Below, piece by piece: positions 13,430 through 30,168 of a DNA stretch of 36,949 bases. The notes beneath the pieces were generated by a model, which ran no database searches, was not told the origin of the DNA, and was given only the letters and a program-made list of their open reading frames with translations. The position numbers and the translations under genes were made by a program. The stretch comes from Rhodocyclaceae bacterium (GTDB lineage: Bacteria > Pseudomonadota > Gammaproteobacteria > Burkholderiales > Rhodocyclaceae): assembly GCA_020445665.1 (NCBI GenBank), contig JAGRGD010000074.1:1-36949 (forward strand). The letters run 5' to 3'. Position 1 is the first letter of the stretch; each line of letters starts with the position of its first letter.

Positions 13430-13469
13430 GCTGTGGCGCCCGCCCTACCCTCTGCGACGCATGACTTGA

Positions 13470-13493: not shown

Positions 13494-13498
13494 CCGGC

Positions 13499-13972: not shown

Positions 13973-13984
13973 GGCGATCTCCTT

Positions 13985-14016
13985 ATTGACAACTCACCAA
14001 TACAATATCTGTCAAT
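13985..14016. repeat. 7-bp inverted repeat in the lipoprotein/mocR intergenic region
   Basis: ATTGACA (13985-13991) and TGTCAAT (14010-14016) are perfect inverted repeats with an 18-bp spacer inside unusually AT-rich sequence. Each arm contains a -35-like TTGACA reading in opposite directions, so these may be promoter elements of the two divergent genes or a regulator site. Confidence 0.4.
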
Positions 14017-14040
14017 TTTTCTGTTGCTCATATACACTTC

Positions 14041-14083
14041 ACCGGTCAATGCATGGACTGTACCGGCCAACTCACCGGGCCAG
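14041..14083 (+). promoter_or_regulatory. Direct repeats upstream of the mocR-type gene (possible operator)
   Basis: ACCGGTCAAT (14041), ACCGGCCAAC (14062) and ACCGGGCCAG (14074) are direct repeats; the first two are 21 bp apart, two helical turns. MocR/PdxR-type regulators commonly bind direct repeats near their own start. A TATACA hexamer at 14031-14036 just upstream could be the -10 box. Binding is inferred. Confidence 0.4.
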
Positions 14084-14109
14084 TTCCTGCGCCATGAACG
14101 AGACACCTC

Positions 14110-15510: not shown

Positions 15511-15516
15511 GGCGGA

Positions 15517-16347
15517 TCAGAAGCGCTCGTCCGGGCGAAGCACCCGCCATTGCCCGGCCGGCAGCTCGCCCAGCCGGACGCGGCCGATCCGGATGCGCTT
15601 GAGACCGACCACGCGGAGTCCGACGAGCTCGCACATACGGCGAATCTGCCGCTTGCGCCCTTCCCGCAGCACGAAGCACAACTGATCCGCGTTTTGCCAG
15701 CTGACCCGCGCCGGTCGCAATGCCTTGCCGTCGAGCGTCAGCCCATGATTGAGCAGCGCCAGTCCGTCCTTGCCCAGGCTCCCTTCGACCCGAACGAGGT
15801 ACTCCTTGTCGACGGAGGAGTCATCGCCAATGAGCTGGCGTGCGACGCGCCCATCCTGGGTCAGCACCAGCAGACCGGTCGAATCGACGTCGAGGCGGCC
15901 GGCCGGTGCCAGCCCCTTGAGCATCGCCGGACGGAAGCTCGGCCCACCCTCGGAGCCCTGCCATTGGGTCTCAGGCCGGATCAGCTTGACCGCAGGCGTG
16001 CAGCCGGGTTCCGGTTGGCCCGACACATAGCCGACCGGCTTGTTCAGCACCAGCGTGATGCGCTGGGCCTGCTGTCGCTGCGCGCGAGGATCGAGTTCGA
16101 TCCGGGCGTCCGGCGAGACCCTGGAACCCAGTTCATCGATGACGCGTCCGTCAACGCGCACCCAGCCGCTGGCGATGAACTCGTCTGCCTCGCGCCGGGA
16201 ACACATGCCACGGCCGGCCATGACCTTCGACAGGCGCTCGCCGTCGGCGGGGCTCGCATCCGGCACGGCGGCAGCAGGGTCGGCCGCGCGCTTGACGACA
16301 CGCAAGCGGCGACGTGGCGGGGTGTCGTCGTTCGAGGGTCCGGACAT
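15517..16347 (-). CDS. RluB/RluF/RsuA-family pseudouridine synthase
   Basis: Converts a specific uridine in rRNA to pseudouridine. 276 residues. After a charged N-terminal 35 residues come an S4 RNA-binding domain ([21 protein letters not shown], about 38-85) and then the catalytic domain. The hallmark [11 protein letters not shown] carries the nucleophilic aspartate D153, and the C-terminal [11 protein letters not shown] is the family motif III. Between KPVGYVSG and the active site lies an insertion (about 110-145) seen in RluF-like members. I cannot tell from sequence whether the target is 23S U2604/U2605 or 16S U516, so no symbol is given. It stands alone, transcribed toward the mocR gene; 78 bp separate its start from the mrp operon end. 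Confidence 0.92.
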
Positions 16348-16425: not shown

Positions 16426-16770
16426 TCAGGAATCCCGATCCGGACCGGGATGGTCGGCGTCGGCAACCTGGTCGCGTCGCGCGGCCAGGAACAGCGCGCA
16501 CTTGGCCATCAGGTGGGCGGAGACGGGCGCCGTCAGGAAGAGGAACAGGGTGATCAGCAGTTCATGGACACTGATCCCGGGGTCGGTCAGCGAAAAGTAC
16601 AGCGCGGACGCGACGAGAATGCAGCCGACGCCCAGGGTGCCCGCCTTGGTCGGCCCGTGCAGGCGCAGCAGCACGTCCGAGAAACGCACCAGCCCGAGGG
16701 AGCCGAGTAGCGAGAACGCGGCACCGATGACGAGCAGCAGGGCGACGGCGATGTCGGCAAGCGCAGCCAT
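16426..16770 (-). CDS. mrpG: Mrp-type Na+/H+ antiporter subunit G (operon 1)
   Basis: Small membrane subunit of a multisubunit cation/proton antiporter (Mrp/Mnh/Sha/Pha). 114 residues with three hydrophobic segments and the MnhG core GLVRFSDVLLRLHGPTKAGTLG; the C-terminal tail is charged. I start at the ATG at 16770, which overlaps the mrpF stop by one base (TGATG); the open frame extends upstream inside mrpF but is a shadow there. Last gene of operon 1. No U-tract terminator was found after the stop. Confidence 0.94.
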   Translation of the reverse strand: MAALADIAVALLLVIGAAFSLLGSLGLVRFSDVLLRLHGPTKAGTLGVGCILVASALYFSLTDPGISVHELLITLFLFLTAPVSAHLMAKCALFLAARRDQVADADHPGPDRDS

Positions 16771-17048
16771 CAGTCGATCACCTCCCCGTTGAGCAGGTAC
16801 TTGGTCAGCGCCACGGTTCCGACGAAACCCAGCAGCGCAATGATCAGCGCACCTTCGAAGTAGAGCACGCTGTCGTAGGCGATGCCGCCGACGACAAGCA
16901 GGGCGATGGTATTGATGTAGAGCGTATCGAGGGCAAGGATGCGGTCCACCCGGGTCGGGCCCCGCACCAGGCGCCAGGCGCAACAGAGCATGGCCATCAC
17001 CAGCATGGCCACCGCGGCGGGCAACGCCAGGGCCGTCAGGCTGTTCAT
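16770..17048 (-). CDS. mrpF: Mrp-type Na+/H+ antiporter subunit F (operon 1)
   Basis: 92 residues, three predicted transmembrane helices. Contains the MnhF signature RLVRGPTRVDRILALDTLY. In solved Mrp complexes E, F and G form a membrane block that contacts MrpA and has been implicated in the sodium route. Start overlaps the mrpE stop (ATGA); stop overlaps the mrpG start by one base. Confidence 0.95.
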   Translation of the reverse strand: MNSLTALALPAAVAMLVMAMLCCAWRLVRGPTRVDRILALDTLYINTIALLVVGGIAYDSVLYFEGALIIALLGFVGTVALTKYLLNGEVID

Positions 17049-17563
17049 TGCAGCATCTCCAGCAGTGGATCTTCGTAGCGCCTGCGGATCTCAGCCACCA
17101 GGGAATCGGGATCCGGTGCGTCAAGGGCGTGCACCAGCAGCCGATACACCCCGTCCGACTCGGGCTCGATGATGTCGGCTGACAGGGTGCCGGGCGTCAG
17201 CGTGACAATGCCGGCCAGCGCGGCGATCGCCGCCGGCGTGGTCAGCCTCAGGTCGATCGTGACAAGCGTCGGGGCAAGCGAGGCCTCCCGGGCAGACAGA
17301 ATCAACCGGGCCACAACCAGGTTCGACATCAGAATGTCACCAAGCACGGTCGCGCCCAGGCGAAAGCCAAGACCCAGGCGACGCGCGGGCCGGCGCCGGG
17401 GCACTTGCGCGCCATGACTCAGCGCCGGGCGCGCCAGCCAAGGCACGACCACGCCGATCACCAGGGCCAGCAAGACATGGCCGACCGCTGCGGTGTTGTT
17501 GAGCGCCAGCCACAGCAGCACCAGCGCAGCCGACAGGATGGGATAGGGAAACCAGCGCGTCAT
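17045..17563 (-). CDS. mrpE: Mrp-type Na+/H+ antiporter subunit E (operon 1)
   Basis: 172 residues: two to three N-terminal transmembrane helices, then a soluble alpha/beta domain with the MnhE signature (TLTPGTLSADI and LLVHALD). I start at the ATG at 17563 because AGGAGG lies 8 nt upstream; the frame is open to 17833 but overlaps mrpD there. The 13-bp gap after mrpD is one of the few non-overlapping junctions in operon 1, and the strong ribosome binding site suggests independent initiation. Confidence 0.94.
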   Translation of the reverse strand: MTRWFPYPILSAALVLLWLALNNTAAVGHVLLALVIGVVVPWLARPALSHGAQVPRRRPARRLGLGFRLGATVLGDILMSNLVVARLILSAREASLAPTLVTIDLRLTTPAAIAALAGIVTLTPGTLSADIIEPESDGVYRLLVHALDAPDPDSLVAEIRRRYEDPLLEMLQ

Positions 17564-17576
17564 GGCCTCATCCTCC

Positions 17577-19106
17577 TCAGGGTTGCCGGCCATACTGGGG
17601 CCGCGGCTGGGTGTCCAGGATCGCCCTGGCATCTGCGCGCGTCGCGTCGACCTGCTCCGCCAGCTGCCCCACGTAGCGTTGAGCCGGTCCCGCGGCGACG
17701 ACCAGCGCCAGCAGCCCACCCAGCAACATGCCCGCGCCATAGAGGCTGCCGCGCCCGCCACGCCGGACATGTTCGCCTGGGGCGTGTGGCTCCGCATGCC
17801 AGAACAGGGTGCTGCCGGCGCGTGACAGAGCAATGAGCGTGGTCAGGCTCCCCAGCAGCACTGCAGCGGCCAGGTGGCCGCGCCCGTCGTGCGAAAACAA
17901 CTCGGCGATCAGCATCGACTTGCCGATGAAGCCGGACAGCGGTGGGAGGCCGGCAATCGCCACGGCTACCACGAAGAACATGCCACCGATCAGACCCGCG
18001 CGACCGACCGCGGGGGCCGGCTCGAGCCGGTCCTCGACCCGACCCCGGCCTCGGCGGATCACGTCGGCGACAAGGAACAGCGCGGCGCCGGCAAGCGTGC
18101 TGTGGGCGGCGTAGTACATGGCTGCGGCGACGCCGCCCGGCAGCCCGGTTCCGATCAGCAGGGTGCCGGCGGAAGCGAGCACCAGACTGGCGGCCAGGCC
18201 GCGCAGGTGGTGCGCCGCCAGCGCGCCGAGGGCGCCGAACAGCAAGGTCAGGGCGCCCACCCAGGGGATAGCCGAGGAAAGATAGATCCAGGGGGAATCC
18301 GGGGCCATGGTGCCGAAGACCCCGACGAAGACGCGAACCACGGCATAGATGCCGACCTTGGTCAGCAGCGCGAAGAGCGCCGCGACAGGCGCATCAGCCG
18401 CACCGTAGGTCGCCGGCAGCCACAGGCCGAGGGGCAGCGCCGCCGCCTTGATGGAGAAAACGACCAGCAGGAGCAGCATCGCTGCCTGCAGCATCGGCAT
18501 GTCGTCGGCGGAGACCTTGCCACCGATGGTCGCCAGTTCGGCGAACGAGAGGGTACCCGCAATGCCGTAGATGAGCCCGGCGGCGATCAGGAACAGCAGC
18601 GAGCCGACCAGATTGAAGATGATGTAGTGCAGGCTCGCGCCGCGGGTCTGGCGCTCCCCGGAATAGAGCAGCAGGCCATACGAAGCGGCCAGCAGGACTT
18701 CGAAAAAGACGAACAGGTTGAACAGGTCGTTGGTCAGGAAGGCGCCAGCGACGCCCGCCAGCTGGGCCTGGAACAGCGCGTGGAAATGCAGGGCGCGCGC
18801 CTGCCCGCCGCCGATGGCCGCGAGGAGGGCAGCCACGCCGACGAAGCCGGTCAACAGCAGCATCCACGCCGACAGGCGGTCGAGCAGCAGTGCGATGCCG
18901 AAGGGCACACGCCAGTTGCCGACGAGCAGCACCTCGCTACGCCCGTCGGCGGCGTGGGCGAACAGCACCACCGCAATCGCAAGAAACGTCAGCGTGGCGG
19001 CGATACCGACGGCGTGACGAGCCGTCGCGGATGCCCCCCTCATCACCACCAGGGCTGCCGCAGCAACGATCGGGATCACCACCGGGGCGGCAAGCAGCAG
19101 GTTCAT
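17577..19106 (-). CDS. mrpD: Mrp-type Na+/H+ antiporter subunit D (operon 1)
   Basis: NuoL/M/N-like proton-translocating subunit, 509 residues, about 14 hydrophobic helices. The key charged residues of the family are present: TM5 glutamate in FFEVLLAAS (E136) and TM7 lysine in SIKAAALPLGLWLP (K220), followed by a further lysine in LLTKVGIYAVVR. Later segments include PPLSGFIGKSML, another family landmark. Start overlaps the mrpC stop (ATGA). Together with MrpA it supplies the two pump-like units of the operon 1 complex. Confidence 0.96.
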   Translation of the reverse strand: MNLLLAAPVVIPIVAAAALVVMRGASATARHAVGIAATLTFLAIAVVLFAHAADGRSEVLLVGNWRVPFGIALLLDRLSAWMLLLTGFVGVAALLAAIGGGQARALHFHALFQAQLAGVAGAFLTNDLFNLFVFFEVLLAASYGLLLYSGERQTRGASLHYIIFNLVGSLLFLIAAGLIYGIAGTLSFAELATIGGKVSADDMPMLQAAMLLLLVVFSIKAAALPLGLWLPATYGAADAPVAALFALLTKVGIYAVVRVFVGVFGTMAPDSPWIYLSSAIPWVGALTLLFGALGALAAHHLRGLAASLVLASAGTLLIGTGLPGGVAAAMYYAAHSTLAGAALFLVADVIRRGRGRVEDRLEPAPAVGRAGLIGGMFFVVAVAIAGLPPLSGFIGKSMLIAELFSHDGRGHLAAAVLLGSLTTLIALSRAGSTLFWHAEPHAPGEHVRRGGRGSLYGAGMLLGGLLALVVAAGPAQRYVGQLAEQVDATRADARAILDTQPRPQYGRQP

Positions 19107-19465
19107 TCTGCCTCTCCCCTGCCCTGCGCGGCACTCCGCTGCTCGCCCCGCTGTCCGTCCACATGGTCGGTTCTCTCGGCGACGTAGTCGGCCAGCGCGA
19201 CCGCGAGCAGGAGCGCGGTCATCGCGAAACCGATGACGATCGCCGTCAGCGTCAGCGCCTGGGGCAAAGGGTCGGTGTATCGCACGACCCCGTCACTGAT
19301 GATCGGCGCGGCACCGCCGATGCGGCCCACCGAGAACAGGAACAGGTTCACGCCGTAGGACATCAGCGTCAGCCCGAGTACGACATCGAACGAGCGCGAG
19401 CGGAGCATCAGGAAAACGCCACAGGCGATCAGCACCCCGATGCCGCTGGCAAGCAGGATCTCCAT
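19103..19465 (-). CDS. mrpC: Mrp-type Na+/H+ antiporter subunit C (operon 1)
   Basis: NuoK-like small subunit, 120 residues, three transmembrane helices, with the MnhC signature VVLGLTLMSYGVNLFLF and TDPLPQALTLTAIVIGFA. The C-terminal 25 residues are hydrophilic and Gln/Arg/Glu-rich. Its ATG overlaps the mrpA stop by one base (TGATG) and its stop overlaps mrpD (ATGA), so expression should be coupled. Confidence 0.95.
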   Translation of the reverse strand: MEILLASGIGVLIACGVFLMLRSRSFDVVLGLTLMSYGVNLFLFSVGRIGGAAPIISDGVVRYTDPLPQALTLTAIVIGFAMTALLLAVALADYVAERTDHVDGQRGEQRSAAQGRGEAE

Positions 19466-22290
19466 CAGTGCTCCCCCCGAACCGGAACCGACCCGTCACC
19501 AACGGCCCGCAGGCGTCCGAGCGCCACGATCGCCGCGAGCGAGCCTCCCACCACCACGGCGAACACGCCAAGATCGAACAACGCCGCACTGGCCAGCGGA
19601 AGCTCGCCAATCAGGGGCAGCACCGGATGGCCGAAGGTGCTGGTCAGGAAGGGGTAACCGAGCACCATCGCGCCAGCGCCGGTTGCGGCGGCGATCAGCA
19701 GCCCCCAGCCGAGCCATCCCTGCCAATCCGAAGAGAGCCTCGCCTCCACGTGCTGACGGCCGAAGGCGAGATACAGCGTGACGAGGCCGATCGCGTAGAC
19801 CAGGCCAGCGATGAAACCACCGCCCGGCAGGTTGTGGCCTCGCAGGAAGAGGAACAGCGCCACGACCCATGCCATCGGCAGCAGCGTGCGCGCGACGACG
19901 CGCAGCAGCAGCGGGTGGCGCACCGGATCGGCCGCCTCGGGGTGCGTCACCGAGGCCGGCGGCGGATGCAGATGGCGAAGCAAGGCGACGATCGTCAGCG
20001 CCGCGATCGCCAGGACAGTGACCTCGCCGAAGGTGTCGAAGCCGCGGAAGTCCACCAGGATCACATTGACCGCGTTGGTACCGCCCCCCTCCGGCACCGC
20101 GCGGGTGAGGAAGAAGTCCGCCAGGGACTCACGCGGGAAATGGCCCGCCGGCGCCCGCGTCAGCACCGCGAAGGCCAACAGCGCTGCGCCGCCACCGGCG
20201 GCAACCGCGAGTGCCACGTCACGGACCAGCCGAGGCATGCGGACGGGTCGCGGGTCGGGGCGCGACCACTGGGGCAGGTGGTGAAGAGCCAGCATCATCA
20301 GAACGATGGTGACCACCTCGACGAGCAGCTGAGTGAGCATCAGATCGGGTGCCGACAGGTGCTCGAAGGTCAGCGCGACGACCACGCCCACCGCGCCGAC
20401 GAAGACCAGCGCGGTCGAGCGGGCGCGATGGGCGACGACGGTCCCGACGGCCGCGCCGACCCCGATCGCCCACAAGGTGAGTTCGAAGGGGTCGGGCCAC
20501 GCTGGCGCCAGCGTCCCGAGTCGGTAGGGCCCGACCAGGAATGGCGTCGCACCGGCGACGAGAATGACCGCCAGCAGCAGCGCCACATAGCGCTGCAGGC
20601 TGCCATTGCGGAATCGGCTGACCTCGTCCGCGAAGCGGCCGAAACGACTGAGTACGGTATCGAATGCGCGCTTGCCGTGCGCCTGCATGAGCCGCTGGTG
20701 CAGGCGAAACAGCCGTTGCAGGCTGAAGTAGAGTACCGCCCCGACGACCATCGCCAGCACGCTCATCGCCAGCGGCAGGTTGAAACCGTGCCAGATCGCC
20801 AGGTCGTAGTCGGGCAAGCCCTGGGGCAGCAGCGGTCCGGCGGCGACGTTCAGGATCCGGCCGACGGCAAGGTCCGGCGCCAGCCCGACGACCAGGCACA
20901 AGGCCACCAGCAAGGCGACCGGCACGCGCATCCACAGCGGCGGTTCGTGCGGGGTGCGGGGCAGGTCCTCCGGCTCGCCGTTGAAGAAGACATCGTGCGC
21001 GAAGCGCAACGAGTAGGCGATCGCGAACGCGCCGGCCAGCGTCGCGGCAGCCGGCGTCAGGAACTCGAGCAGCCGGTGCCCCTCGACGAACAGGGTTTCG
21101 GCGAAGAACATCTCCTTGGAAATGAAGCCGTTGAGCAGCGGCACGCCGGCCATCGCCGCGGCCGCGGTCATGGCCAGCGTCGCGGTGACCGGCATGAAGC
21201 GCCAGAGACCATTGATGCGGCGCATGTCGCGGGTACCGCATTCGTGGTCGACGATGCCGGCCGCCATGAACAGGCTGGCCTTGAAGGTCGCATGGTTCAT
21301 GATGTGAAAGACCGCTGCGACGGCGGCGAGCGGCGAGTCGAGGCCCAGCAACAGGGTGATCAGGCCGAGATGACTGATCGTCGAGTAGGCGAGCAGGCCC
21401 TTGACGTCGTGCTGGAAGATCGCCACCGCCGAACCCAGCAGCAGGGTCGCCATACCGGCCGTGGAAACGATCCAGAACCACATCTCGTTGCCCGCCAGGG
21501 CCGGGTAGAGCCGGGCCAGGAGAAACACCCCCGCCTTGACCATTGTGGCCGAATGCAGGTAGGCCGAAACCGGCGTTGGCGCGGCCATCGCGTGGGGCAG
21601 CCAGAAATGGAAGGGGAACTGGGCGCTCTTGGTGAAGGCGCCGAGGAGCACCAGACCCAGCGCCGCCGGGAACGCGGGATGGGCCTGCAGCAGGTCGCGC
21701 GCCGCGAGCACGTCGTCGAGCGCGAAGCTGCCCACGATGTGCCCGATCAGCATGACGCCGGCAAACAGGCAGAGGCCGCCCGCGCCGGTGATCGCCAGGG
21801 CCATGCGTGCCCCCTGACGAGCATCCTGCCGGTGCCGCCAGAAGCCGATCAGCAGGAAGGACGAGAGACTGGTCAACTCCCAGAAGATCACGAGCAGCAG
21901 CAGGTTGTCGGCGGTGACCACGCCGAGCATCGCACCCATGAACCCCGCCAGCATGGCGTAGAAGCGAGGTGCCGGCTCGGAGGCGTCGAGGTAATAGGAC
22001 GCATAGAGCACCACCAGCATGCCGATGCCGCCGATCAGCGCGATGAACAGCCAGGCCAGGCCGTCGATGCGAAAACCGAAGGCAATGCTCGGCGCGTCCA
22101 GCCAGGCGATCTGCCATCTGAGCACCTCGCCACCGAACACCGCGGGCGCCAGCGCCAATGCCCCCAGCAGGACGGTGAACGCGGTCAGCCCGGTGATCAT
22201 GGCCGCGAGCCTGCGGGAACGCACGCTGCCCGCCAGCGCGGCGGCGGCAAAAGGCAAGGCGACGAAGAAGGCGATGAGATCGTCGGGCAT
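19465..22290 (-). CDS. mrpA: Mrp-type Na+/H+ antiporter subunit A fused to subunit B (operon 1)
   Basis: Largest subunit, 941 residues, corresponding to PhaAB/ShaA-type A-B fusions. The N-terminal about 500 residues are NuoL-like, with TM5 glutamate in FWELTSLSSF (E138), TM7 lysine in FTKSAQFPFHFWLP (K221) and MVKAGVF after it. The C-terminal MrpA part follows, with RGFDTFGEVTVL near 748. From about 800 an MnhB domain follows (LPGGGFIAGLVYAIGL), so no separate mrpB is needed. I start at the ATG at 22290; the frame is open to 22536 but upstream residues do not look like a membrane protein. No clear ribosome binding site precedes the ATG. First gene of operon 1, which probably exports Na+ (or K+) in exchange for protons and supports pH and salt tolerance. 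Confidence 0.95.
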   Translation of the reverse strand: MPDDLIAFFVALPFAAAALAGSVRSRRLAAMITGLTAFTVLLGALALAPAVFGGEVLRWQIAWLDAPSIAFGFRIDGLAWLFIALIGGIGMLVVLYASYYLDASEPAPRFYAMLAGFMGAMLGVVTADNLLLLVIFWELTSLSSFLLIGFWRHRQDARQGARMALAITGAGGLCLFAGVMLIGHIVGSFALDDVLAARDLLQAHPAFPAALGLVLLGAFTKSAQFPFHFWLPHAMAAPTPVSAYLHSATMVKAGVFLLARLYPALAGNEMWFWIVSTAGMATLLLGSAVAIFQHDVKGLLAYSTISHLGLITLLLGLDSPLAAVAAVFHIMNHATFKASLFMAAGIVDHECGTRDMRRINGLWRFMPVTATLAMTAAAAMAGVPLLNGFISKEMFFAETLFVEGHRLLEFLTPAAATLAGAFAIAYSLRFAHDVFFNGEPEDLPRTPHEPPLWMRVPVALLVALCLVVGLAPDLAVGRILNVAAGPLLPQGLPDYDLAIWHGFNLPLAMSVLAMVVGAVLYFSLQRLFRLHQRLMQAHGKRAFDTVLSRFGRFADEVSRFRNGSLQRYVALLLAVILVAGATPFLVGPYRLGTLAPAWPDPFELTLWAIGVGAAVGTVVAHRARSTALVFVGAVGVVVALTFEHLSAPDLMLTQLLVEVVTIVLMMLALHHLPQWSRPDPRPVRMPRLVRDVALAVAAGGGAALLAFAVLTRAPAGHFPRESLADFFLTRAVPEGGGTNAVNVILVDFRGFDTFGEVTVLAIAALTIVALLRHLHPPPASVTHPEAADPVRHPLLLRVVARTLLPMAWVVALFLFLRGHNLPGGGFIAGLVYAIGLVTLYLAFGRQHVEARLSSDWQGWLGWGLLIAAATGAGAMVLGYPFLTSTFGHPVLPLIGELPLASAALFDLGVFAVVVGGSLAAIVALGRLRAVGDGSVPVRGEH

Positions 22291-22785
22291 CGATGCTGAG
22301 GCGCTTGTTCTTGGTTTTGGAACCGGGCCGAAGCTGGACACCTGCGCGTCAGCAGCCTCCCCTGGCGTGCACCCGACACTCTGACGGTTTCGGAGTCCCA
22401 CGCCCGCAGTCTGACTTGTGCTCCGCCGAAGGAGTTCCGCCAGCCGCCCGCAACGCACGGCTCGTGTCACGCCCTGGCGCAGCGAAAATCGCCGGCCAAG
22501 GGGGCGGCCCTGACCGAGAGCGGTGACAAGGCGCACCCCGCATCGGGATGCTCAGGCTGGGGATCTGGGTCGGCGCGGTGCGCCCGGGCAAGCGCACGAT
22601 CCGTCTGCGATCAGACTGCGCGACGCCCCCCACGCCCGGTGGGCGTCAGAACAGGGGAAGCTGAATCCCGGAAGCGTCAGTCGGCGGCGCGTGAGGCACA
22701 CAACACCAGCCATCGCGCGCCGCGCCAGACGCCGCCGACCGCCCGGCGCGGGTCGCGCGACGGCAGTCTGTCGGACGGGCAGGCG
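22291..22785. other. 495-bp spacer between the two Mrp operons
   Basis: Lies between the stop of operon 2 (22786) and the start of operon 1 (22290), both minus. No open frame here has membrane-protein composition, a plausible ribosome binding site or a recognisable motif. I found no convincing terminator with a U-tract and no clear -35/-10 pair, so whether operon 1 has its own promoter here or receives read-through is open. Confidence 0.5.
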
Positions 22786-24486
22786 TCAGTCCGGTACGTA
22801 GAACAGGACGAGGTAGCCCAGCAGCAGAATCGCGACCCACAACACCATATGGCCGGACAGCCAGGTGCGGGCAAGTACGCCAGTGGGGCCATAGTGGCGG
22901 TAGAGGCCGACGCCGAACGCGCCCAGACGAATCGCCAGCCCCCGCGCGGACGCGGCGAGGGCGGAGGACGTGCCAGCCGCCAGCCCCGAGGCAATGCCCG
23001 TGCCCAGGACGCGATAGAACCAGTCCAGATCCAGCGTAATGGTCAGCGTGCGCTTGAGATAGTTGAGCAGCAGGAAGAAGGCGAGGCCGGAGAACAGCAG
23101 CAATTGCAGCTGGAAGACCACGTGGGCGCCGGTATAGGGCTGGTAGTCCACCGGATAGGGCAGGATCGCGTAGAGCGGGTCGGGATAGCATCCGACGACG
23201 ATGCAGAAGGCCGAGAAGATCACCATCGCCCAGCTCATGCTCGACGGCGGATCCTTGGGCCGCATGCCCGAATCCTTCTGGAAGAACACGAACCACGGGA
23301 ACTTGATGCCGGCGTGGAGGAAGACCCCCGCCGACGCGGCCGCGAGCAGCAGCCAGACGATCATCATGTGCTCGTTGGCCGCCGACTGGGAAATCATCGA
23401 CTTGGTCACGAAACCCGAGGTGAACGGGAAGGCCGAGATCGCCAGCGCCCCGATGGTGCCGCAGATGGTGGTGAGCGGCATGCTCTGGAACAGGCCGCCC
23501 AGATCCGTGCACTTGCGCTTGCCAGTGCGGTACAGCACCGCCCCCGCCGACATCAGCAGCAGCGCCTTGTAGATGATGTGCGCGAAGGCGTGGGCCGCGG
23601 CGCCGTTGAGGGCCATCTCGGTGCCGATGCCGATGCCGGTCACCATGAACCCGACCTGGTTGATGATGGAGTACGCCAGAATCCGGCGCATGTCGTTCTC
23701 GAGGATCGCGTAGACGATCCCGTAGAAGACCATGTAGAGGCCGATCGGGATCAGGATCTCGGTGCCGGGAAAGCCTCTGAGCAGCACGTACACGGCGGTC
23801 TTGGTGGTGAACGCGGAGAGGAACACGGTGCCGCTCCACGAGGCCTCCGGGTAGGCGTCCGGCAGCCACGCCGAGAACGGCGGCGCACCGGCGTTGATCA
23901 GGAAGCCGATCAGGATCAGCCAGTGGGCCAGGGAGTCGGGCTTCATGGCCTCGAAGGTGAGGCTGCCACCGTCGACGACGTGGCCGGTGATGCCCGCCAT
24001 CAGGATCACGCCACCAAACAGGTGGACCATCAGGTAGCGCATCGAGGCGGCCCGCGCCGAAGCGCCTCCGGCCCAGATCACCAGCGTCGAGCCGACGGCC
24101 ATCAGCTCCCAGAACAGGAACAGCGTGATCAGATCCCCGGCGAAGACGGCCCCGACCGCCGAGCCAGCGTAGACAAAGGCGGCCGGCACCTCGATGCGGC
24201 TCTCCTGGCGCAAGGCGAAGAGGCCGCCGACCAGCGCCATCAGCGTGAAGATCGTCCCGAAGATCCGGGCCAGCCGGTCGCCGCGGACGAACTCGAGGGT
24301 GTAGTCGAGGAAGCCGACCCGACCGAAGATGCCGTCGCCCACCTGCCAGACCATGAACAGGGCCACGGCAGGCACGATGACGGCGAGCGCGGAACGAGCC
24401 GAACCGCGGACGAAGGCCATCAGGATGCCGCCGGCGATCAGCAGCAGGCCGGGGTGCAGCATCATGTCATTCGTCATAGTAATCAT
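22786..24486 (-). CDS. NuoL/M/N-like antiporter subunit D3 lacking the TM7 lysine (operon 2)
   Basis: Third pump-like subunit of operon 2, 566 residues, about 14-15 hydrophobic segments. TM5 glutamate is present (LFWELMAVGS, E127). At the TM7 position the usual lysine and histidine (as in KAALMPFHRWLP of D2) are replaced: INAGAPPFSAWLP, with N198 and a serine at the histidine position. The second lysine (FTTKTAVYVL, K229) sits exactly 31 residues later, as in D2, so the alignment is unambiguous. It has a longer C-terminus (about 470-566) than MrpD. The ATG at 24486 overlaps the 79-residue gene by about 20 bp; ATG at 24477 is an alternative. Last gene of operon 2. It may be structural, or use another proton route. 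Confidence 0.9.
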   Translation of the reverse strand: MITMTNDMMLHPGLLLIAGGILMAFVRGSARSALAVIVPAVALFMVWQVGDGIFGRVGFLDYTLEFVRGDRLARIFGTIFTLMALVGGLFALRQESRIEVPAAFVYAGSAVGAVFAGDLITLFLFWELMAVGSTLVIWAGGASARAASMRYLMVHLFGGVILMAGITGHVVDGGSLTFEAMKPDSLAHWLILIGFLINAGAPPFSAWLPDAYPEASWSGTVFLSAFTTKTAVYVLLRGFPGTEILIPIGLYMVFYGIVYAILENDMRRILAYSIINQVGFMVTGIGIGTEMALNGAAAHAFAHIIYKALLLMSAGAVLYRTGKRKCTDLGGLFQSMPLTTICGTIGALAISAFPFTSGFVTKSMISQSAANEHMMIVWLLLAAASAGVFLHAGIKFPWFVFFQKDSGMRPKDPPSSMSWAMVIFSAFCIVVGCYPDPLYAILPYPVDYQPYTGAHVVFQLQLLLFSGLAFFLLLNYLKRTLTITLDLDWFYRVLGTGIASGLAAGTSSALAASARGLAIRLGAFGVGLYRHYGPTGVLARTWLSGHMVLWVAILLLGYLVLFYVPD

Positions 24487-24706
24487 CCGGGCGCTTGAGC
24501 CACATCCCGAGCAGCTTCGAGCCGAACACCAGGATCACGCAGCCGATGAAGCCGAACCACGCATTGAAGGCCGGCAGCGCGTCGATGCCGAAGTGCGGGT
24601 GCGACTCGACGAAGAACTCCGCCACGACGGTCAGGGCCAGGATCGCGATGAAGGCAATCCAGAGCTTGCGAATGGATTCCGGACGAACCAGCCAGTGCAT
24701 GGTCAT
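24467..24706 (-). CDS. Small two-helix membrane protein inside the second Mrp operon
   Basis: 79 residues, family not assigned. The N-terminus is amphipathic (MHWLVRPESIRKLW), followed by two predicted transmembrane helices (about 16-30 and 50-67) separated by a conserved-looking loop (ESHPHFGIDALPAFNAWFGF). The tail is charged and aromatic (KRPDDYYDE). ATG at 24706 overlaps the D2 stop (ATGA); an in-frame ATG at 24700 is possible. Its 3' end overlaps the D3 start. This tight coupling on both sides argues that it is a real subunit or assembly factor of the complex. It does not match MrpC, E, F or G in size or motif. From memory, similar small proteins occur beside D-like subunits in other genomes, but I cannot confirm that here. 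Confidence 0.75.
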   Translation of the reverse strand: MTMHWLVRPESIRKLWIAFIAILALTVVAEFFVESHPHFGIDALPAFNAWFGFIGCVILVFGSKLLGMWLKRPDDYYDE

Positions 24707-26208
24707 TCCCCTCCGGCGACGGCCCGCGCGAGTCGCAGCACGGGCTCGTGATAGATGAACAGGAGGACGGTCAGCGAGGCGGTGACGGTCTGGGCCAGCA
24801 CCATCGGCCACGGCGCCTCGCCGTGATCGCCGTGGTGATCGTCGTGACCATGCCCGCCATGGCCGTCGTCGTGGTGCGCCTCTGGTGCCGGCTCGCGGAA
24901 GAAGGCGCGCCACACGATCGGCAGGAAGTAGCCCGCGTTGAGCAGGGTGCTGGCCACCAGCACGCCGACCGCGATCCAGTGCTCGGTACTCATCGCCGCC
25001 GACAGGATGTACCACTTGGAGATGAAGCCGGCGGCCGGCGGCAGGCCGATCATCGACAGCGCGCCGATGGCGAAGGCGACCATCGTCCAGGGCATCTTGC
25101 GGCCAATGCCGTCGAGCTGGCTGACCTCGGTCTTGTGGGCCGCCGTGTAGATCGAGCCGGCCGCGAAGAAGAGCGTGATCTTGCCCACCGCGTGGGCCGC
25201 GATGTGCATCGCCGCGCCAATGATCGAGATCGGCGCCAGCAGCGTGGCGGCGAGCGTGACATACGAGAGCTGGCTGACTGTCGAATAGGCCAGGCGGCGC
25301 TTCAGGTTGTCGGCCCGCAGCGCGACGATCGATGCCGCGACGATCGTGTAGCCGGCGATCAGCGGCACCCAGTCGGCGCTGCCCAGGTTCATCAGGTTCT
25401 CGGCACCGAAGACGTAGACGATGACCTTGACGATACTGAACACGCCGGCCTTGACCACCGCCACCGCGTGGAGCAGCGCCGAAACCGGCGTCGGCGCCAC
25501 CATCGCCGCCGGCAGCCAGCGGTGGAACGGCATCAGTGCCGCCTTGCCGATCCCGAACATGTAGAGAGCCATCAGCACCGCGGTGCCGGTCGCGCCGACC
25601 TGCCCCGCGAGGATGCCGCCCTGGCGGAAATCCAGGGTGCCGGCCAGCACCCAGGTGGCGAGCATGCCGGTGAGCAGGAAGACGATCGAGGTGCCCATCA
25701 GCACGCCGAGGTAGATGCGGGCGGACTTCTTCGCGTGATCGGTGCCGTGGTGCGTGACCAGCGGATAGGTGATCAGCGTCATCGCCTCGTAGAACAGGAA
25801 CAGCGTCAGCATGTTGCCGGCGAAGGCGATGCCCTGGGCGGCGAAGATGGCGCCGGCGAAGCAGACGAAGAAGCGGGTCTGGTTGCCCTCCTTGTTGCCG
25901 CGCATGTAGCCGATCGAGTAGATCGAGCTGATGATCCACAGGCCCGAGGCGATCAGGCCGAAGAGCATGCCGAGGGGTTCGGCGGTGAGTTGCAGCGACA
26001 CCTCGGGCAGCATCGGCAGCAGGAGCAGCTCGGGCCGCGCACCGGCGGCGACATCGCCGTAGAGGGCGAGCACCTGGGCGAAGAGCACGAGCGCGGTGGT
26101 GAGCGTGACGCCCTCCCGCAGGTTGGGGCTGCGGCCGCTCAACGAGACCAGGATCAGGCCAACCAGCGGCGTGGCGAGAATGCCGGCGAGTGCCATCGAG
26201 CCGCTCAT
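24703..26208 (-). CDS. MrpD/NuoM-like antiporter subunit D2 with a His-rich loop (operon 2)
   Basis: 501 residues, about 14 hydrophobic helices. TM5 glutamate in LFYEAMTLIT (E141), TM7 lysine in GIGKAALMPFHRWLP (K222) and a second lysine in VVKAGVF (K253) are all present, so it should be pump-competent. Near the C-terminus a hydrophilic loop at 445-462 contains eight histidines among Asp and Gly residues, then a last helix. Start at the ATG at 26208 overlaps the D1 stop (ATGA); the frame runs further upstream but only as a shadow. The other two operon 2 pump subunits lack the His-rich loop. Confidence 0.92.
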   Translation of the reverse strand: MSGSMALAGILATPLVGLILVSLSGRSPNLREGVTLTTALVLFAQVLALYGDVAAGARPELLLLPMLPEVSLQLTAEPLGMLFGLIASGLWIISSIYSIGYMRGNKEGNQTRFFVCFAGAIFAAQGIAFAGNMLTLFLFYEAMTLITYPLVTHHGTDHAKKSARIYLGVLMGTSIVFLLTGMLATWVLAGTLDFRQGGILAGQVGATGTAVLMALYMFGIGKAALMPFHRWLPAAMVAPTPVSALLHAVAVVKAGVFSIVKVIVYVFGAENLMNLGSADWVPLIAGYTIVAASIVALRADNLKRRLAYSTVSQLSYVTLAATLLAPISIIGAAMHIAAHAVGKITLFFAAGSIYTAAHKTEVSQLDGIGRKMPWTMVAFAIGALSMIGLPPAAGFISKWYILSAAMSTEHWIAVGVLVASTLLNAGYFLPIVWRAFFREPAPEAHHDDGHGGHGHDDHHGDHGEAPWPMVLAQTVTASLTVLLFIYHEPVLRLARAVAGGE

Positions 26209-27686
26209 TTCCAGGCCCCCGCGAGCGCTTCCGCAGCCGCCCGGGCCATCGAGCCCGACCAGGTCGCGTCCAGGCCGAACCACAGGCAGGCGGCGATCAT
26301 CGCCAGGCCTGGCAGCAGCATCGAGAGGGGCGCCTCACCGCGACTCGGGCTGCCTTCCGGGGGCTCCCGGAAGTAGGCGACCTCGACGAAACGCCAGACG
26401 TAGATCACGGCCAGCAGCGAGGACAACATCACCGCGCCGGCAAGCCACCACTGGCCCTCCTCCATCGCGGCCGTCACGAGGTACCACTTGCTGATGAAAC
26501 CAGCCGTCCCGGGAATGCCGATCAGGGAAAGGCCTCCGAGCACGAAGGCAAAGGCCGCAATCGGCATCGTACGCCCGAGCCCCGCCATGCGCTCCAGGCT
26601 GGCACCACCGTATCGCAGCACCACCCCTCCGAGGATCAGGAACATGCCGCCCTTGGTCAGGGCGTGGTTGAACAGGTGCGCCACGGCCGCGGTCAGGCCA
26701 CCCACCGAACTCAGGCTGATCCCGAGCGTGATATAGCCGATCTGCGACACGCTGGAATAGGCCAGCAGGCGCTTGACGTCCTTCTGGAAGATCGCCACCA
26801 CGGCCGGGATGAACATCGCCGCCAGGGAGAGCGCGAGCAGCAAGGTGCCGGTGTAGCGCGCATCGAACACCACGGTCTCGCCGAAGATCGTGAAGAAGTA
26901 GCGCATCAGCACGTAGATCGAGACCTTGGTGGCCGTTGCCGCCAGGAAGGCCGACACCGCCGACGGCGAGTAGGCGTAGGCGTTCGGCAACCACAGATGA
27001 AGCGGGAACAGCGCGATCTTGAGGGAGATACCGACGGTGATGAAGGCCAGCGCCGCCAGCGTGGCCCGCACGTCCCCCATCACGGGCAGGCGCTGGGCCA
27101 GGTCGGCCAGGTTCAGGGTGCCGGTCTGCAGGTAGAGCAGACCGATGCCGATCACGTACAGGGTCGCGCCGATCGTCCCCATCAGCAGGTACTGGTAGGA
27201 CGCGACCAGGGCACGCCGGTCGCGCCCCATCGCGATCAGGACGTAGGTCGCCAGGGACGAGATCTCGAGGAAGACGAACAGGTTGAAAGCGTCGCCGGTG
27301 AGCAGGATGCCCAGCAGGCCGGCGAGGCACAGCATCATCATCGCGTAGAAGAGGTAGTGCTCCTCGGAGCGCACCTCGGCGGCGATGCCGGTCCGGCAGT
27401 AGGGCATCACGAACACCGCCATCAGGGCGACGATCAGCGCCACGAAGGCGTTGGCGGCGTCGACCCGGTACTCGATGCCCAGCGGCGCGGGCCAGGTGCC
27501 GATGGCGTAGCTGATGACCCCCTGGTCCACCGCCTGCTGCAGCAGCGGAATGGCGATGATCAGCGTCACGACGCTCGCCAGCATGGCGGCCATCCAGCTC
27601 AGGAGGGGCCGCCGCAGCAGCACGATGAGCGGTGCCGTGATCAGCGGGACAATGACCAGGAGGATCGGAAGGTGTTGTTTAAGCAA
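26205..27686 (-). CDS. mrpD: Mrp-type antiporter subunit D1 (operon 2)
   Basis: 493 residues, NuoM/N-like, about 14 helices. Key residues are present: TM5 glutamate in VFLEISSLAT (E141), TM7 lysine in ISLKIALFPLHLWLP (K223) and the following lysine in ATKVSIYVLMR. Of the three pump-like subunits in operon 2 it is closest in pattern to operon 1 MrpD. The start is a TTG at 27686, three bases past the mrpC stop, with no strong ribosome binding site; the protein is hydrophobic from residue 6, so there is little room for a later start. Translational coupling to mrpC is likely. Confidence 0.93.
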   Translation of the reverse strand: MLKQHLPILLVIVPLITAPLIVLLRRPLLSWMAAMLASVVTLIIAIPLLQQAVDQGVISYAIGTWPAPLGIEYRVDAANAFVALIVALMAVFVMPYCRTGIAAEVRSEEHYLFYAMMMLCLAGLLGILLTGDAFNLFVFLEISSLATYVLIAMGRDRRALVASYQYLLMGTIGATLYVIGIGLLYLQTGTLNLADLAQRLPVMGDVRATLAALAFITVGISLKIALFPLHLWLPNAYAYSPSAVSAFLAATATKVSIYVLMRYFFTIFGETVVFDARYTGTLLLALSLAAMFIPAVVAIFQKDVKRLLAYSSVSQIGYITLGISLSSVGGLTAAVAHLFNHALTKGGMFLILGGVVLRYGGASLERMAGLGRTMPIAAFAFVLGGLSLIGIPGTAGFISKWYLVTAAMEEGQWWLAGAVMLSSLLAVIYVWRFVEVAYFREPPEGSPSRGEAPLSMLLPGLAMIAACLWFGLDATWSGSMARAAAEALAGAWK

Positions 27687-27689
27687 GGC

Positions 27690-28067
27690 TCAGGCGCGAT
27701 CGGTGGCGTTCAGTTCGTCGGCGGCATCCCGTTCGAGAATCTCTTCCTCTTCGATGCTGCCGTAGGCTTCCTTGATGCGCACGACCAGCGCCAGGCCCAG
27801 GGCGAGCGTGGCGACCCCCACCACAATGGCGGTCAGGATCAGGACGTGGGGGAGCGGGTTCGAGTACACGTCGAAGCCCTCGCCGATGATCGGCGCGACG
27901 CCGCCGATCAGTTTGCCGGGCGCGATATAGAGCAGATAGACCGCGGTCTGGAACAGCCCCAGTCCGACCAGCTTCTTGATCAGGTTGCTGCGTGCGATGA
28001 CGATGAACAGCCCCACCATCAGCAGCAGGATCGTGACGAAGTAGGTGTAGTGACTGGCGAGGTTCAC
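27690..28067 (-). CDS. mrpC: Mrp-type antiporter subunit C (operon 2)
   Basis: NuoK-like subunit, 125 residues, three transmembrane helices with the family pattern KKLVGLGLFQTAVYLLYI and NPLPHVLILTAIVVGVA. The C-terminus is acidic (EEEEILERDAADE). The GTG start overlaps the MnhB-like gene stop (GTGA). Compared with MrpC of operon 1 it keeps PLP..L-LTAIV but has a different tail and a longer N-terminal helix. Corresponds to MbhG in the archaeal membrane-bound hydrogenase order. Confidence 0.93.
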   Translation of the reverse strand: MNLASHYTYFVTILLLMVGLFIVIARSNLIKKLVGLGLFQTAVYLLYIAPGKLIGGVAPIIGEGFDVYSNPLPHVLILTAIVVGVATLALGLALVVRIKEAYGSIEEEEILERDAADELNATDRA

Positions 28068-28507
28068 GACGCGTCCTCGCTGTCGACCGGGCTGCGCGAA
28101 CGCCCGGCGAACACATAGAAGATCTTCAGCATCACGGCGAACACGGTGACCAGGACTCCGACCTCAACCCAGAAGATGCCGCGGTGCTGGCCATGCACCG
28201 GATCGTGGGCGAGCACGAAGTAGTCGAGAAAGTTGCCCCCCAGGAGCAGGCCGGCAACGCCGACCCCGGCGTAGATCAGGACGCCCAGGGCGATCATCGC
28301 CTCGACCAGGGCATCGGGCACCACCTTGCGCGCGCTCGGCAGGCCGTAGATCAGGGCATAGAAGATCACTGCCGCGGCGGCGATCACGCCCGCCTGGAAG
28401 CCACCGCCGGGCCCGAAGTCACCGTGGAACTGCACGTAGGAGGCGAACATTACGGCGAACGGAATCAGCAGCTTCGCCAGCACGCGCAGAATGATGTCGA
28501 GCCTCAC
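28064..28507 (-). CDS. mrpB: Mrp-type antiporter subunit B (MnhB domain; operon 2)
   Basis: 147 residues, four predicted helices, with the MnhB signature FGPGGGFQAGVIAAAAVIFY. In operon 1 the same domain is fused to MrpA (LPGGGFIAGLVYA). GTG start overlaps the A' stop (GTGA), and its stop overlaps mrpC (GTGA). Corresponds to MbhF in membrane-bound hydrogenase. Confidence 0.92.
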   Translation of the reverse strand: MRLDIILRVLAKLLIPFAVMFASYVQFHGDFGPGGGFQAGVIAAAAVIFYALIYGLPSARKVVPDALVEAMIALGVLIYAGVGVAGLLLGGNFLDYFVLAHDPVHGQHRGIFWVEVGVLVTVFAVMLKIFYVFAGRSRSPVDSEDAS

Positions 28508-29064
28508 GACGCGCCTCCTCCGTCGCCCGCCTTGGCGGAATCGCGCGACTTGAAACGCTTGCGGGGCTTGCCCCTTCGCAGCAGGGCGATCACCCCGATG
28601 CCGGCGGTGAACACCACGGTCGTCTCGCCCAGGGTGTCGAAGCCCCGGTAACTGGCGAGCACCTCCGTCACGACGTTCGGCACTCCCGTCTTCTCCGGCC
28701 CCTCCTTGAGGTACTGCGGCGCGACGTGCTGGTGAATCGGCGCCTGCGGATCCGAGAAGGCGGGAAGACCGAGGGTGCCGTAGACCAGCACCCCGCCCGT
28801 CACGGCAACCACGAACAGGGGCAGCCAGGGCTTGTGGATCGGCTTCGACTCGGTGCTTCCGGCCAGATAGATGGCGCCAAGCAGCAGGACCGTGGAAATC
28901 CCCGCGCCGACGGCGGCCTCGGTCATTGCCACGTCCACGGCGTCGAGCACGACGAGCAGCGTCGCCATCAGGAAACTGTAGATGCCGGACAGCAGCACGA
29001 CGCCGAACAGGTTGCGTTGCCGCGCGATCCCGATCGCGGCGGCTCCCATCAGCGTGAGCAGCAC
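28504..29064 (-). CDS. Truncated MrpA-like protein (A', C-terminal MrpA region only; MbhD+MbhE-like)
   Basis: 186 residues from the first ordinary start codon (GTG, 29064). It contains two units: an MbhD/DUF4040-like part (LLSGIYSFLMATLLV, then DAVDVAMTEAAVGAGISTVL) and an MbhE-like part with VLASYRGFDTLGETTVVF, which aligns with DFRGFDTFGEVTVL near residue 748 of the full MrpA in operon 1. The NuoL-like N-terminal 500 residues of MrpA are absent. The similarity seems to begin earlier, near 29091 (IILTTLTAVV), where only ATC or CTG codons are available; AAGGAG lies 7 nt before the ATC at 29088. The true start may therefore be non-canonical and overlap the mrpG stop. Tail is basic (KPRKRFKSR). 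Confidence 0.85.
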   Translation of the reverse strand: MLLTLMGAAAIGIARQRNLFGVVLLSGIYSFLMATLLVVLDAVDVAMTEAAVGAGISTVLLLGAIYLAGSTESKPIHKPWLPLFVVAVTGGVLVYGTLGLPAFSDPQAPIHQHVAPQYLKEGPEKTGVPNVVTEVLASYRGFDTLGETTVVFTAGIGVIALLRRGKPRKRFKSRDSAKAGDGGGAS

Positions 29065-29081
29065 GACGGCGGTGAGCGTGG

Positions 29082-29405
29082 TCAGGATGATGCTTCTCCT
29101 TCGTCTTCTGCCAGCACCGGCTTGACGCCCCGTTCGAGGGCCGCGCTGGCGAGCGAGTGCGAAGCCGTGGGCGAGGTGAAGAAGATCAGCAGGCCCAGAA
29201 TCACGAGCTTGACACTCGCCAGCGAGAAACCGGACTGAAGGATGAGCCCGAGAATGATCAGCCCGGCGCCGAGGGTGTCGATGACGCTGGCCGCGTGCAT
29301 GCGGGTGAAGAAATCCGGCATGCGCAGCATGCCGACCGCGCCGATGACGCAGAACACGCCGCCCAGAGACACGAGGATCCAGGTCAGGATGTCGAGGGGG
29401 TTCAT
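29082..29405 (-). CDS. mrpG: Mrp-type antiporter subunit G (operon 2)
   Basis: 107 residues, three helices, with the MnhG core AVGMLRMPDFFTRMHAASVIDTLG and the C-terminal FFTSPTASHSLASAAL. ATG at 29405 overlaps the mrpF stop (ATGA); the open frame upstream is a shadow of mrpF. Corresponds to MbhC. The operon 1 paralogue is clearly related (GLVRFSDVLLRLHGPTKAGTLG) but differs at most positions. Confidence 0.94.
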   Translation of the reverse strand: MNPLDILTWILVSLGGVFCVIGAVGMLRMPDFFTRMHAASVIDTLGAGLIILGLILQSGFSLASVKLVILGLLIFFTSPTASHSLASAALERGVKPVLAEDEGEASS

Positions 29406-29689
29406 GACTCGTCCGCCTCGCTGCGCCCGGGCTCGCCGAGGTTTCCGTAGCGGAAGAACTTCTGCAGGGCAATCGTCCCGATGATGTTGAGCAGGCCGTA
29501 GACGAGCGCCAGATCGACGAACTCGGGACGCCCGGCCATGAACTGGAAGATCGCCAGCAGCATCATCGTCGCGGTACCGACCGCATTCCCGGCCAGCGCG
29601 CGATCGAATACCGTCGGTCCCTGGAACGCCCGGACCAGGGCAAGTGCCAGCGTGACAAGCAGCGCGAGGACGGTAACCGCATAGATCAT
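29402..29689 (-). CDS. mrpF: Mrp-type antiporter subunit F (operon 2)
   Basis: 95 residues, three helices, MnhF signature RAFQGPTVFDRALAGNAVGT. The C-terminus is acidic (EPGRSEADES). Overlaps mrpE2 and mrpG2 with ATGA junctions on both sides. Corresponds to MbhB. Confidence 0.94.
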   Translation of the reverse strand: MIYAVTVLALLVTLALALVRAFQGPTVFDRALAGNAVGTATMMLLAIFQFMAGRPEFVDLALVYGLLNIIGTIALQKFFRYGNLGEPGRSEADES

Positions 29690-30168
29690 GACAGCCCCTC
29701 GAATTCGGTAACGCGGCGGTCCATGTCACCGTCGGCGACACCAGCGGCTCCTTCCCGGGTCAGTGCGTGCACGAGGATCTCGTCGCCATTGATGTCGACC
29801 GAGATCGTGCCGGGCGTCAGGGTGATCGAGTTGGCGTAGGTCACCTGGCCAATGTGGCTCTTCTGGGTGGACTTGACGCGAACCATGGTGGGGCTGATGG
29901 GCAGCGCCGGGTTCAGGATGATCTTGCTGACGTCGATCGCCGACTTGAAGATCTCCTTGAGCAGCCAGGGCCAGTACAGCACGGCACTGCGGCTCAGGTG
30001 CATCGGGTGGCCTTCGTGGTCGATGACGTCCATGCGATGGGCAAACCACAGCACGGCGACGGCCGACACCACGCCCATGGTCAGCAGGAACGGCGTGAAA
30101 TAGCCGGACAGCACGACCCAGAAGGCGAACAAGGTGATGATGACGCTCAGCGACCGGAAGATGCTCAT
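29686..30168 (-). CDS. mrpE: Mrp-type antiporter subunit E (operon 2)
   Basis: 160 residues: N-terminal helices (about 5-50), then the MnhE soluble domain with SITLTPGTISVDI and ILVHAL. I start at the ATG at 30168. A GTG in frame at 30240 would add 24 non-hydrophobic residues and would begin on the base next to the predicted -10 box, so I reject it. No Shine-Dalgarno is visible before the ATG, which is odd for the first gene of a ten-gene operon. Corresponds to MbhA and leads the operon. Confidence 0.92.
   Translation of the reverse strand: MSIFRSLSVIITLFAFWVVLSGYFTPFLLTMGVVSAVAVLWFAHRMDVIDHEGHPMHLSRSAVLYWPWLLKEIFKSAIDVSKIILNPALPISPTMVRVKSTQKSHIGQVTYANSITLTPGTISVDINGDEILVHALTREGAAGVADGDMDRRVTEFEGLS

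Follow-up and report, generated by a model that had tools for sequence, protein, structure and literature searches.

The locus considered here raises the question of what a gene cluster ordered like the antiporter module of a membrane-bound hydrogenase (MBH) encodes when no hydrogenase accompanies it. It occupies positions 30168 to 22786, read on the minus strand, of contig JAGRGD010000074.1 of a Rhodocyclaceae bacterium (GenBank assembly GCA_020445665.1). The whole contig of 36,949 nucleotides (nt), referred to as the window, is one of the 341 contigs of a draft genome; an earlier interpretation made without database searches (the sequence-only reading) had called it a chromosome. The operon consists of ten genes, E-F-G-A'-B-C-D1-D2-X-D3, where X encodes a 79 aa protein. 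Its gene content places it among the stand-alone group 3 Mrp (CPA3) operons, a kind of arrangement already known, and the ten-gene form is a widespread sub-type and not unique. The assembled complex would function as a stand-alone cation/proton antiporter whose single membrane arm contains three antiporter-like subunits, a reading to which a probability of roughly 0.6 is assigned. Most likely the arm would contain two complete coupling units, D1 and D2, and an altered distal unit, D3.

The operon and its classification

Group 3 Mrp operons are described as having mrpD, sometimes in several copies, and no mrpA (PMC8415708). The ten-gene operon has no full-length mrpA: A' corresponds to MbhD plus MbhE only, the antiporter N-domain being absent by Pfam. 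It encodes three separate Proton_antipo_M proteins, and E, F, G, B and C are all present. The full-length MrpA of groups 1 and 2 is missing from it and is found in another Mrp-type operon situated directly downstream of D3 on the same strand (~16426-22300). No hydrogenase-type or sulfane-reductase genes, as in MBH or the membrane-bound sulfane reductase (MBS), occur in the ten genes or in ten other open reading frames (ORFs) scanned in the window. The same ORFs hold no NADH-module gene (Pfam, 1e-6; the remaining small ORFs and positions 1-1893 lay outside the scan), in agreement with the sequence-only reading, which saw neither a hydrogenase nor an NADH-module subunit. An MBH-like order without a hydrogenase is a known kind, because there are precedents in group 3 Mrp, Nitrospira and green complex I. 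Of the earlier interpretation, the Mrp-like module, the MBH-like order and the three antiporter-like subunits stand. The novelty of the arrangement does not, since group 3 Mrp had already been defined, Pyrococcus furiosus has a stand-alone operon, and haloarchaea have the same order.

Re-examination of the ORFs and Pfam domains bore out the gene content, order, strand and end coordinates first proposed. E (29686..30168, 160 aa) is MrpE/MbhA-like (Pfam MNHE, 3.3e-31). F (29402..29689, 95 aa) is MrpF/MbhB-like (MrpF_PhaF, 3.5e-14), its best PDB match being the MBS chain 6u8y_B, followed by MrpF 6z16_F. G (29082..29405, 107 aa) is MrpG/MbhC-like (PhaG_MnhG_YufB, 5.8e-26; TIGR01300, 84.7 against a cut-off of 63.1). 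A' (28504..29088, ~194 aa, from a predicted AUC start at 29088 or 29091) matches MbhD (4e-16) and MbhE (3.6e-12), and scores 186.1 with NF009159 (cut-off 141). B (28064..28507, 147 aa) and C (27690..28067, 125 aa) both start with GTG; the former is an MnhB protein (1.1e-27; NF009162, 181.5 against 120) and the latter a MrpC/MbhG/NuoK-like protein (Oxidored_q2; NF005624, 123.2 against 95) closest in the PDB to MbsG (6u8y_G, 1.3e-20). The antiporter-like D1 (26205..27686, 493 aa; Proton_antipo_M, 3.5e-66) falls on the MrpD/MbhH/MbsH/NuoN side, with MbsH (6u8y_H) and then MrpD (7qru_D) as best PDB matches. D2 (24703..26208, 501 aa; Proton_antipo_M, 1.4e-53) belongs to a clade of its own with haloarchaeal and Rubrobacter D2 proteins. 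X (24467..24706) is a predicted two-helix membrane protein of no known family. D3 (22786..24486; Proton_antipo_M), the distal antiporter-like subunit, is closest in the PDB to MbsH' (6u8y_X) and exceeds the cut-off of NF009310, Na(+)/H(+) antiporter subunit D (691.2 against 564). The NCBIfam curated cut-offs are passed by A', B, C, G and D3, so NCBI already names several of these subunits; D1, D2, E and F fall below theirs.

Eight of the nine junctions overlap, much as had been noticed at the outset. The overlaps are 4, 4, 7, 4, 4, 4, 4 and 20 nt, and C and D1 are separated by a 3-nt gap, if A' is counted from 29088 and D2 from the ATG at 26208, where the sequence ATGA overlaps with the stop codon of D1. 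The D2 searches ran from 26193, five residues inside that start. Long antisense frames on the plus strand (e.g., 22639-24498, 24748-26376 and 26190-28118), rich in Q, R, H and D, most likely arise from the high G+C content of the coding sequence.

A chance arrangement is excluded because the ten-gene order is conserved across relatives. A protein search with D3 gave at least 568 confirmed matches, the best 80 of which (the named loci) are mostly from metagenome-assembled genomes (MAGs) of Rhodocyclaceae, Burkholderiales and Hyphomicrobiales, with isolates of, for example, Hydrogenophaga, Rhodoferax and Bradyrhizobium in addition. Of these 80 loci, 66 have the complete set in the same order, counting one (L055) in which the D2 match is in two pieces; the same locus (9199-16000) has an extra D3-like match downstream. 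Of the 14 without the full set, 11 begin where a contig end cuts into the operon, two (L032 and L073) are interrupted by N gaps, and one (L084) is unexplained. L032 had been considered as a third gene context and was dropped, its scaffold having regular N gaps. Genes of a full-length-MrpA operon adjoin the ten-gene operon downstream in L077 only and upstream in L065, L069 and L092, many of the 80 loci being too short to tell.

Of 398 evenly sampled Pseudomonadota genomes, 21 have a D3 above the cut-off. The 23 D3 places found there are the window, 17 other ten-gene operons, three complex I clusters, one free D2-X-D3 triplet and one 3-kb contig. Fourteen of the 17 operons are complete by BLAST, two (L142 and L143) show X by profile only, and one (L136) lacks E, its contig starting there. 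Among 61 genomes of relatives, the window's own included, six have a D3 above the cut-off. A MAG labelled Nitrospira sp. MohnsGC08_bin011 (L052) was rejected as evidence for Nitrospirota: its phylum sample contains the same operon-bearing genomes as that of the window's phylum, as matched on size, contig numbers and scores, and its label is doubtful. Beyond bacteria, plasmids of Natronorubrum, Haloterrigena and Haloarcula carry E-F-G-A'-B-C-D1-D2-D3 with no X, as seen in all three complete operons that have separate D2 and D3. On a Halobaculum marinum plasmid (L190:7288-10578), D2 and D3 form one open gene of 1,096 aa, which implies that the two subunits probably sit together.

The antiporter-like subunits and the D2-X-D3 cassette

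The key residues of antiporter-like subunits separate D3 from the other two. D1 and D2 of the window have the full set of Glu in transmembrane helix (TM) 5 and Lys in TM7, TM8 and TM12 (Glu5, Lys7, Lys8 and Lys12). Each key residue is kept in at least 104 of 105 D2 rows and in 93-96 of 97 D1 rows, four of the latter being rhizobial NuoM/NuoN proteins taken as best match. D3 retains Glu127, Lys229 and Lys362 in 112 of 112 rows and departs from the canonical proton-coupling set at TM7, where the window has Asn198. Asn stands there in 95 of the 112 rows and Lys in 17 (89 and 16, respectively, of the 105 distinct sequences). A His seven residues further on is found in exactly the same 17 rows as Lys; in the haloarchaeal D3 proteins Asn occurs with this His retained (6/6). 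Of the other antiporter-like references examined, MbsH alone departs from Lys at TM7, with a Glu reported as E219 (PMC7684303).

In a tree of 90 proteins, D1, D2 and D3 each form one group with bacterial and haloarchaeal members (supports 94, 93 and 100). The tree was made by a quick method and has several long branches; it used 90 of 108 aligned rows, the D1, D2 and D3 rows of six loci being omitted. D1 groups with MbhH, MbsH and NuoN through open forks, D3 adjoins MbsH' (support 92), and D2 joins a Rubrobacter protein (99). Since the three groups span bacteria and haloarchaea, the three-D content is old or was exchanged between domains, and is not a recent duplication. Within D3, the Lys class (10 rows), the Asn class of ten-gene operons (7 rows) and green complex I D3 (2 rows, Asn) are three clades, and the fork uniting the first two apart from the green D3 has a support of only 25. 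In one relative (L009/L144), D2 belongs to the window's clade and D3 to the Lys7 class, a mismatch that suggests exchange of part of the cassette.

D3 is also set apart by its predicted lateral helix. Its length was measured as the spacing between the last two membrane-helix peaks (TM15-TM16) in consensus profiles of each family, or, for MrpA, between the pair flanking the same region. The spacing is 65 in MrpA (n=25, two units) and 99 in NuoL (n=26, three units). In D3 it is 92 in the Asn class of ten-gene type (n=89), 95 in the Lys class (n=17) and 104 in haloarchaea (n=6), and it reaches 110 in the D3 of green complex I (n=4), an enzyme with four units judging by its genes. No comparable extension is present at the ends of D1 and D2 (three rows). 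The NuoL-like rather than MrpA-like spacing, a length correlation and not a structure, supports one arm D3-D2-D1 with D3 outermost, and fits the "enlarged" antiporter of the sequence-only reading.

X is the constant partner of D3 in the bacteria sampled, in Mrp and complex I contexts alike. A profile built from 28 X proteins finds it in exactly the same 21 of the 398 genomes as D3, and nowhere else among them at E 1e-4. In one genome (G228) a second X directly follows D2, at the end of its stretch. The window's X has no Pfam or NCBIfam family and no PDB match at 0.001 (best 0.53); the 28 proteins together gave no NCBIfam match at 0.01 and only scattered weak Pfam matches, the best with an E of 0.0024. 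AlphaFold2 predicts helices at 9-30 and 47-70 (mean pLDDT 86), and as a two-helix hairpin X probably clamps D2 to D3. It is a probable new core subunit of Mrp/complex I-type complexes.

The same trio is found in a second machine. The complex I cluster of Sinorhizobium meliloti reads J-K-D2-X-D3-M-N-A-B-C-D, and the same cluster occurs in three further genomes that are 82-96% identical to it over these genes. D2-X-D3 thus replaces NuoL in rhizobial green complex I, for which two MrpD-like subunits in place of NuoL have been described (PMC9040806); by sequence these two are orthologues of D2 and D3, and X lies between them. A free D2-X-D3 triplet with no Mrp or complex I genes was seen at L133:10751-14316, where nearby genes look flagellar by eye; that genome additionally holds two ten-gene operons.

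The E-F-G-A'-B-C cation module is complete. A' residues D53, E58, D152 and E156 (numbered from 29091) are present in 89 of 89 rows and in 4/4 haloarchaea, and Gln40 of C in 90 of 90 rows and 4/4 haloarchaea.

Mechanism and alternative explanations

In the stand-alone antiporter reading, the subunits would be ordered along the membrane as D3-D2-D1-C-A'-F-G-E, with B at the side. The lateral helix of D3 would brace D2 and D1, and the X hairpin would probably clamp D2 to D3. Proton flow through the D arm would be coupled to opposite movement of Na+ (or K+) through E-F-G-A'-B-C. The exchange would be electrogenic, most likely with protons moving in and the cation out. With Glu5, Lys8 and Lys12 in place and Asn at position 7, D3 would most likely serve as a periplasmic proton inlet and mechanical brace, not as a third coupled unit.

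Several observations weigh against this scheme. i) The cation site appears to differ from that of studied Mrp complexes: MbsG has Glu37 where C has its invariant Gln, and the two His of MrpC correspond to Thr and Tyr in the window's C. ii) The haloarchaeal D1 proteins carry T, T, A and T, and in no case Lys (4/4), at the column aligned with the TM8 position. iii) D2 ranks nearest to NuoL-type chains in the PDB, yet the tree does not join them. iv) The haloarchaeal D3 spacing exceeds that of NuoL, which makes the length rule inexact, and the predicted structure of D3 is weak (mean pLDDT 63). v) The P. furiosus authors infer Na+ entry and H+ exit at falling pH, the reverse of the direction assumed here (PMC8415708); the direction may therefore depend on conditions.

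A first alternative concerns how many of the subunits pump. The sequence-only reading had suggested more pumping units per complex; in that case all three D subunits would pump, moving ~3 H+ per cation. Three antiporter-like subunits are encoded, the lateral helix is long enough for three, and D3 keeps Glu5, Lys8 and Lys12 in every row, with Lys7 too in the 17 rows noted above. In the model proposed with the Mrp structure, the Lys7/Glu5 pairs lie at the coupling points and not on the proton path itself (PMC7419157), and MbsH, with Glu at TM7, is nonetheless said to contain a proton pump (PMC7684303). The same structure paper calls the TM7 Lys absolutely conserved and essential (PMC7419157), and this is the residue that is Asn in the window, in most D3 rows and in all six haloarchaeal D3 proteins, so that additional pumping units are doubtful here and a three-pump complex is rather unlikely. 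At the other extreme, D2-X-D3 would be a structural or sensory accessory that pumps no ions, attached to a one-pump Mrp with D1 only, as in P. furiosus, whose stand-alone Mrp works with a single D (PMC8415708). The loss of Lys7 from D3 and the free triplet at L133 would suit such a role; the near-invariant key residues of D2 and the conservation of the cassette with the operon speak against it, and it is considered very improbable. The natural variants bear on a question of wider interest, namely, whether each antiporter-like subunit moves a proton and whether the Lys7/Glu5 pair couples. Within one operon type D3 occurs in both a Lys7 and an Asn7 class, and it is part of two machines, Mrp and complex I; the H+/cation ratios of these variants would test the models.

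In the remaining alternative, the operon would supply the membrane arm of a redox enzyme resembling green complex I, with the genes of the electron-transfer part lying elsewhere. D2-X-D3 orthologues do reside inside the complex I clusters of S. meliloti and of the three genomes similar to it over these genes. Beside the 17 ten-gene loci, no relative of S. meliloti NuoA-G, J, K, M or N was found within ~20 kb (12 kb for one locus; NuoH, NuoI and hydrogenase were not queried). Two operon-bearing genomes, G107 (100% complete) and G141 (93%), have a single 49-kDa protein each. Four of the eight operon-bearing genomes searched (G001, G005, G034 and G046) have one or more extra, divergent proteins of this family; these lie within ~7 kb of other antiporter-like genes and seem to have their own pumps. 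The window's own genome (G000) and G002 gave no 49-kDa protein although NuoN is present; this must be a gap, and the window's genome cannot decide the matter. The genome-wide search covered the 49-kDa family in the eight operon-bearing genomes. The idea of a partner encoded elsewhere, raised by the sequence-only reading, is weakened by the 17 loci and by the lone 49-kDa protein of G107; the four genomes with extra 49-kDa proteins and the cassette in rhizobial complex I speak in its favour. It is regarded as quite improbable.

The clusters of 49-kDa and antiporter-like genes (G001:C17:85137-91396, G005:C90:48444-54700, G034:C23, and G046:C40 and C101) are probably group 4 hydrogenase-type complexes. 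Separately, contigs end at or beside nuoL in five draft assemblies from the window's genus (G000:C169, G001:C68/C185, G002:C178, G005:C195 and G003:C267). In G001, 18 b separate the start of C185 from the end of nuoK, and C68 begins within nuoM; in G005, C195 stops ~30 b short of nuoM, on its upstream side; and NuoL positions 366-629 are encoded on the G003 fragment. Loss of nuoL throughout the genus was considered, NuoL not being found in these five genomes at E 1e-120, and rejected because the contigs break there. The breaks most likely stem from the assembly and not from loss of the gene.

The A' start and comparison with known systems

The A' gene has an unusual beginning. In the window (29082-29100, minus strand), no ATG, GTG or TTG is found where the Shine-Dalgarno sequence AAGGAG points; the codon there is ATC. 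Among 85 distinct A' sequences, the aligned start is ATC, ATA or ATT in 60, among them the window's; a Shine-Dalgarno core precedes it and there is no upstream standard start, that is, no in-frame ATG, GTG or TTG before a stop or for 60 codons. Of the others, five have a standard codon upstream that either has no core before it or is more distant, 13 have a standard codon at the aligned start itself, five have an upstream ATG with a ribosome-binding site and two have neither. The end of the core usually lies 6 to 8 nt ahead of the codon (55 rows). As controls, the other operon genes except E lack a standard start at the ribosome-binding site in 0-5 of 87-104 rows, versus 65 of 85 for A'. The haloarchaeal A' genes start with ATG (4/4). 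The G stop lies in a constant relative frame in 79 of 83 rows, which makes translational coupling possible or, less likely, a programmed -1 frameshift fusing G and A'; no classical slippery heptamer was seen by eye, no search for one having been run. A studied parallel is the GTC start of Streptomyces sigR, which is repressed by initiation factor 3 (PMC5472188). If confirmed, the A' start would be an unusually widespread conserved non-standard start codon.

Together, these features allow a broader view, offered tentatively and considered rather unlikely. D2-X-D3 would be an exchangeable arm-extension cassette that can be placed on the Mrp cation module or on complex I, replacing the single NuoL or MrpA N-terminal part. 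Its distal unit would be deliberately uncoupled in most lineages seen, through Lys7 to Asn and changes in partner residues, to act as inlet and brace. X would be a new core clamp, and Mrp assembly would be throttled by the conserved AUC/AUA start of A'. Literature searches gave no earlier description of X-D3 co-occurrence, D2-X-D3 in place of NuoL, the D3 spacing, the D3 Asn7 or the A' start, and in the open-licence literature none was found of the ten-gene form as such or of X by name.

Among known systems, the haloarchaeal Mrp operons share with the window the order E-F-G-A'-B-C-D1-D2-D3, orthologous D1, D2 and D3, and Asn at D3 TM7. They differ in having no X, an ATG start for A', a retained TM7 His in D3, and the D2-D3 fusion of Halobaculum. 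The P. furiosus stand-alone operon, mrpEFGBB'CD, matches the first seven genes and their order and likewise has neither MrpA nor a hydrogenase; its coupling ion is Na+ and it has a role in the pH dependence of growth. It has one D versus three, and no X is named in the parts of that account that describe it (PMC8415708). In 'Ca. Nitrospira alkalitolerans', a group 3 Mrp has mrpD followed by two NuoM/NuoL-like genes, read as extra mrpA/mrpD-like genes (PMC7784846). These resemble the two extra antiporter-like genes of the window as far as the published description goes, and its passages on the operon do not mention X.

Rhizobial green complex I has orthologues of D2-X-D3 in the same order. Unlike the ten-gene operon, it is joined to NuoA-G, J, K, M and N, has no E-F-G-A'-B, and has a longer lateral-helix spacing. 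Pyrococcus MBH and MBS share the subunit order of the antiporter module (the MBH order as given in the sequence-only reading; equivalences as in PMC7419157 and PMC8415708). D1 is near MbsH/MbhH, D3 near MbsH' and C near MbsG. The window differs from these enzymes in having no hydrogenase or sulfane-reductase genes and in having an extra D2 and X.

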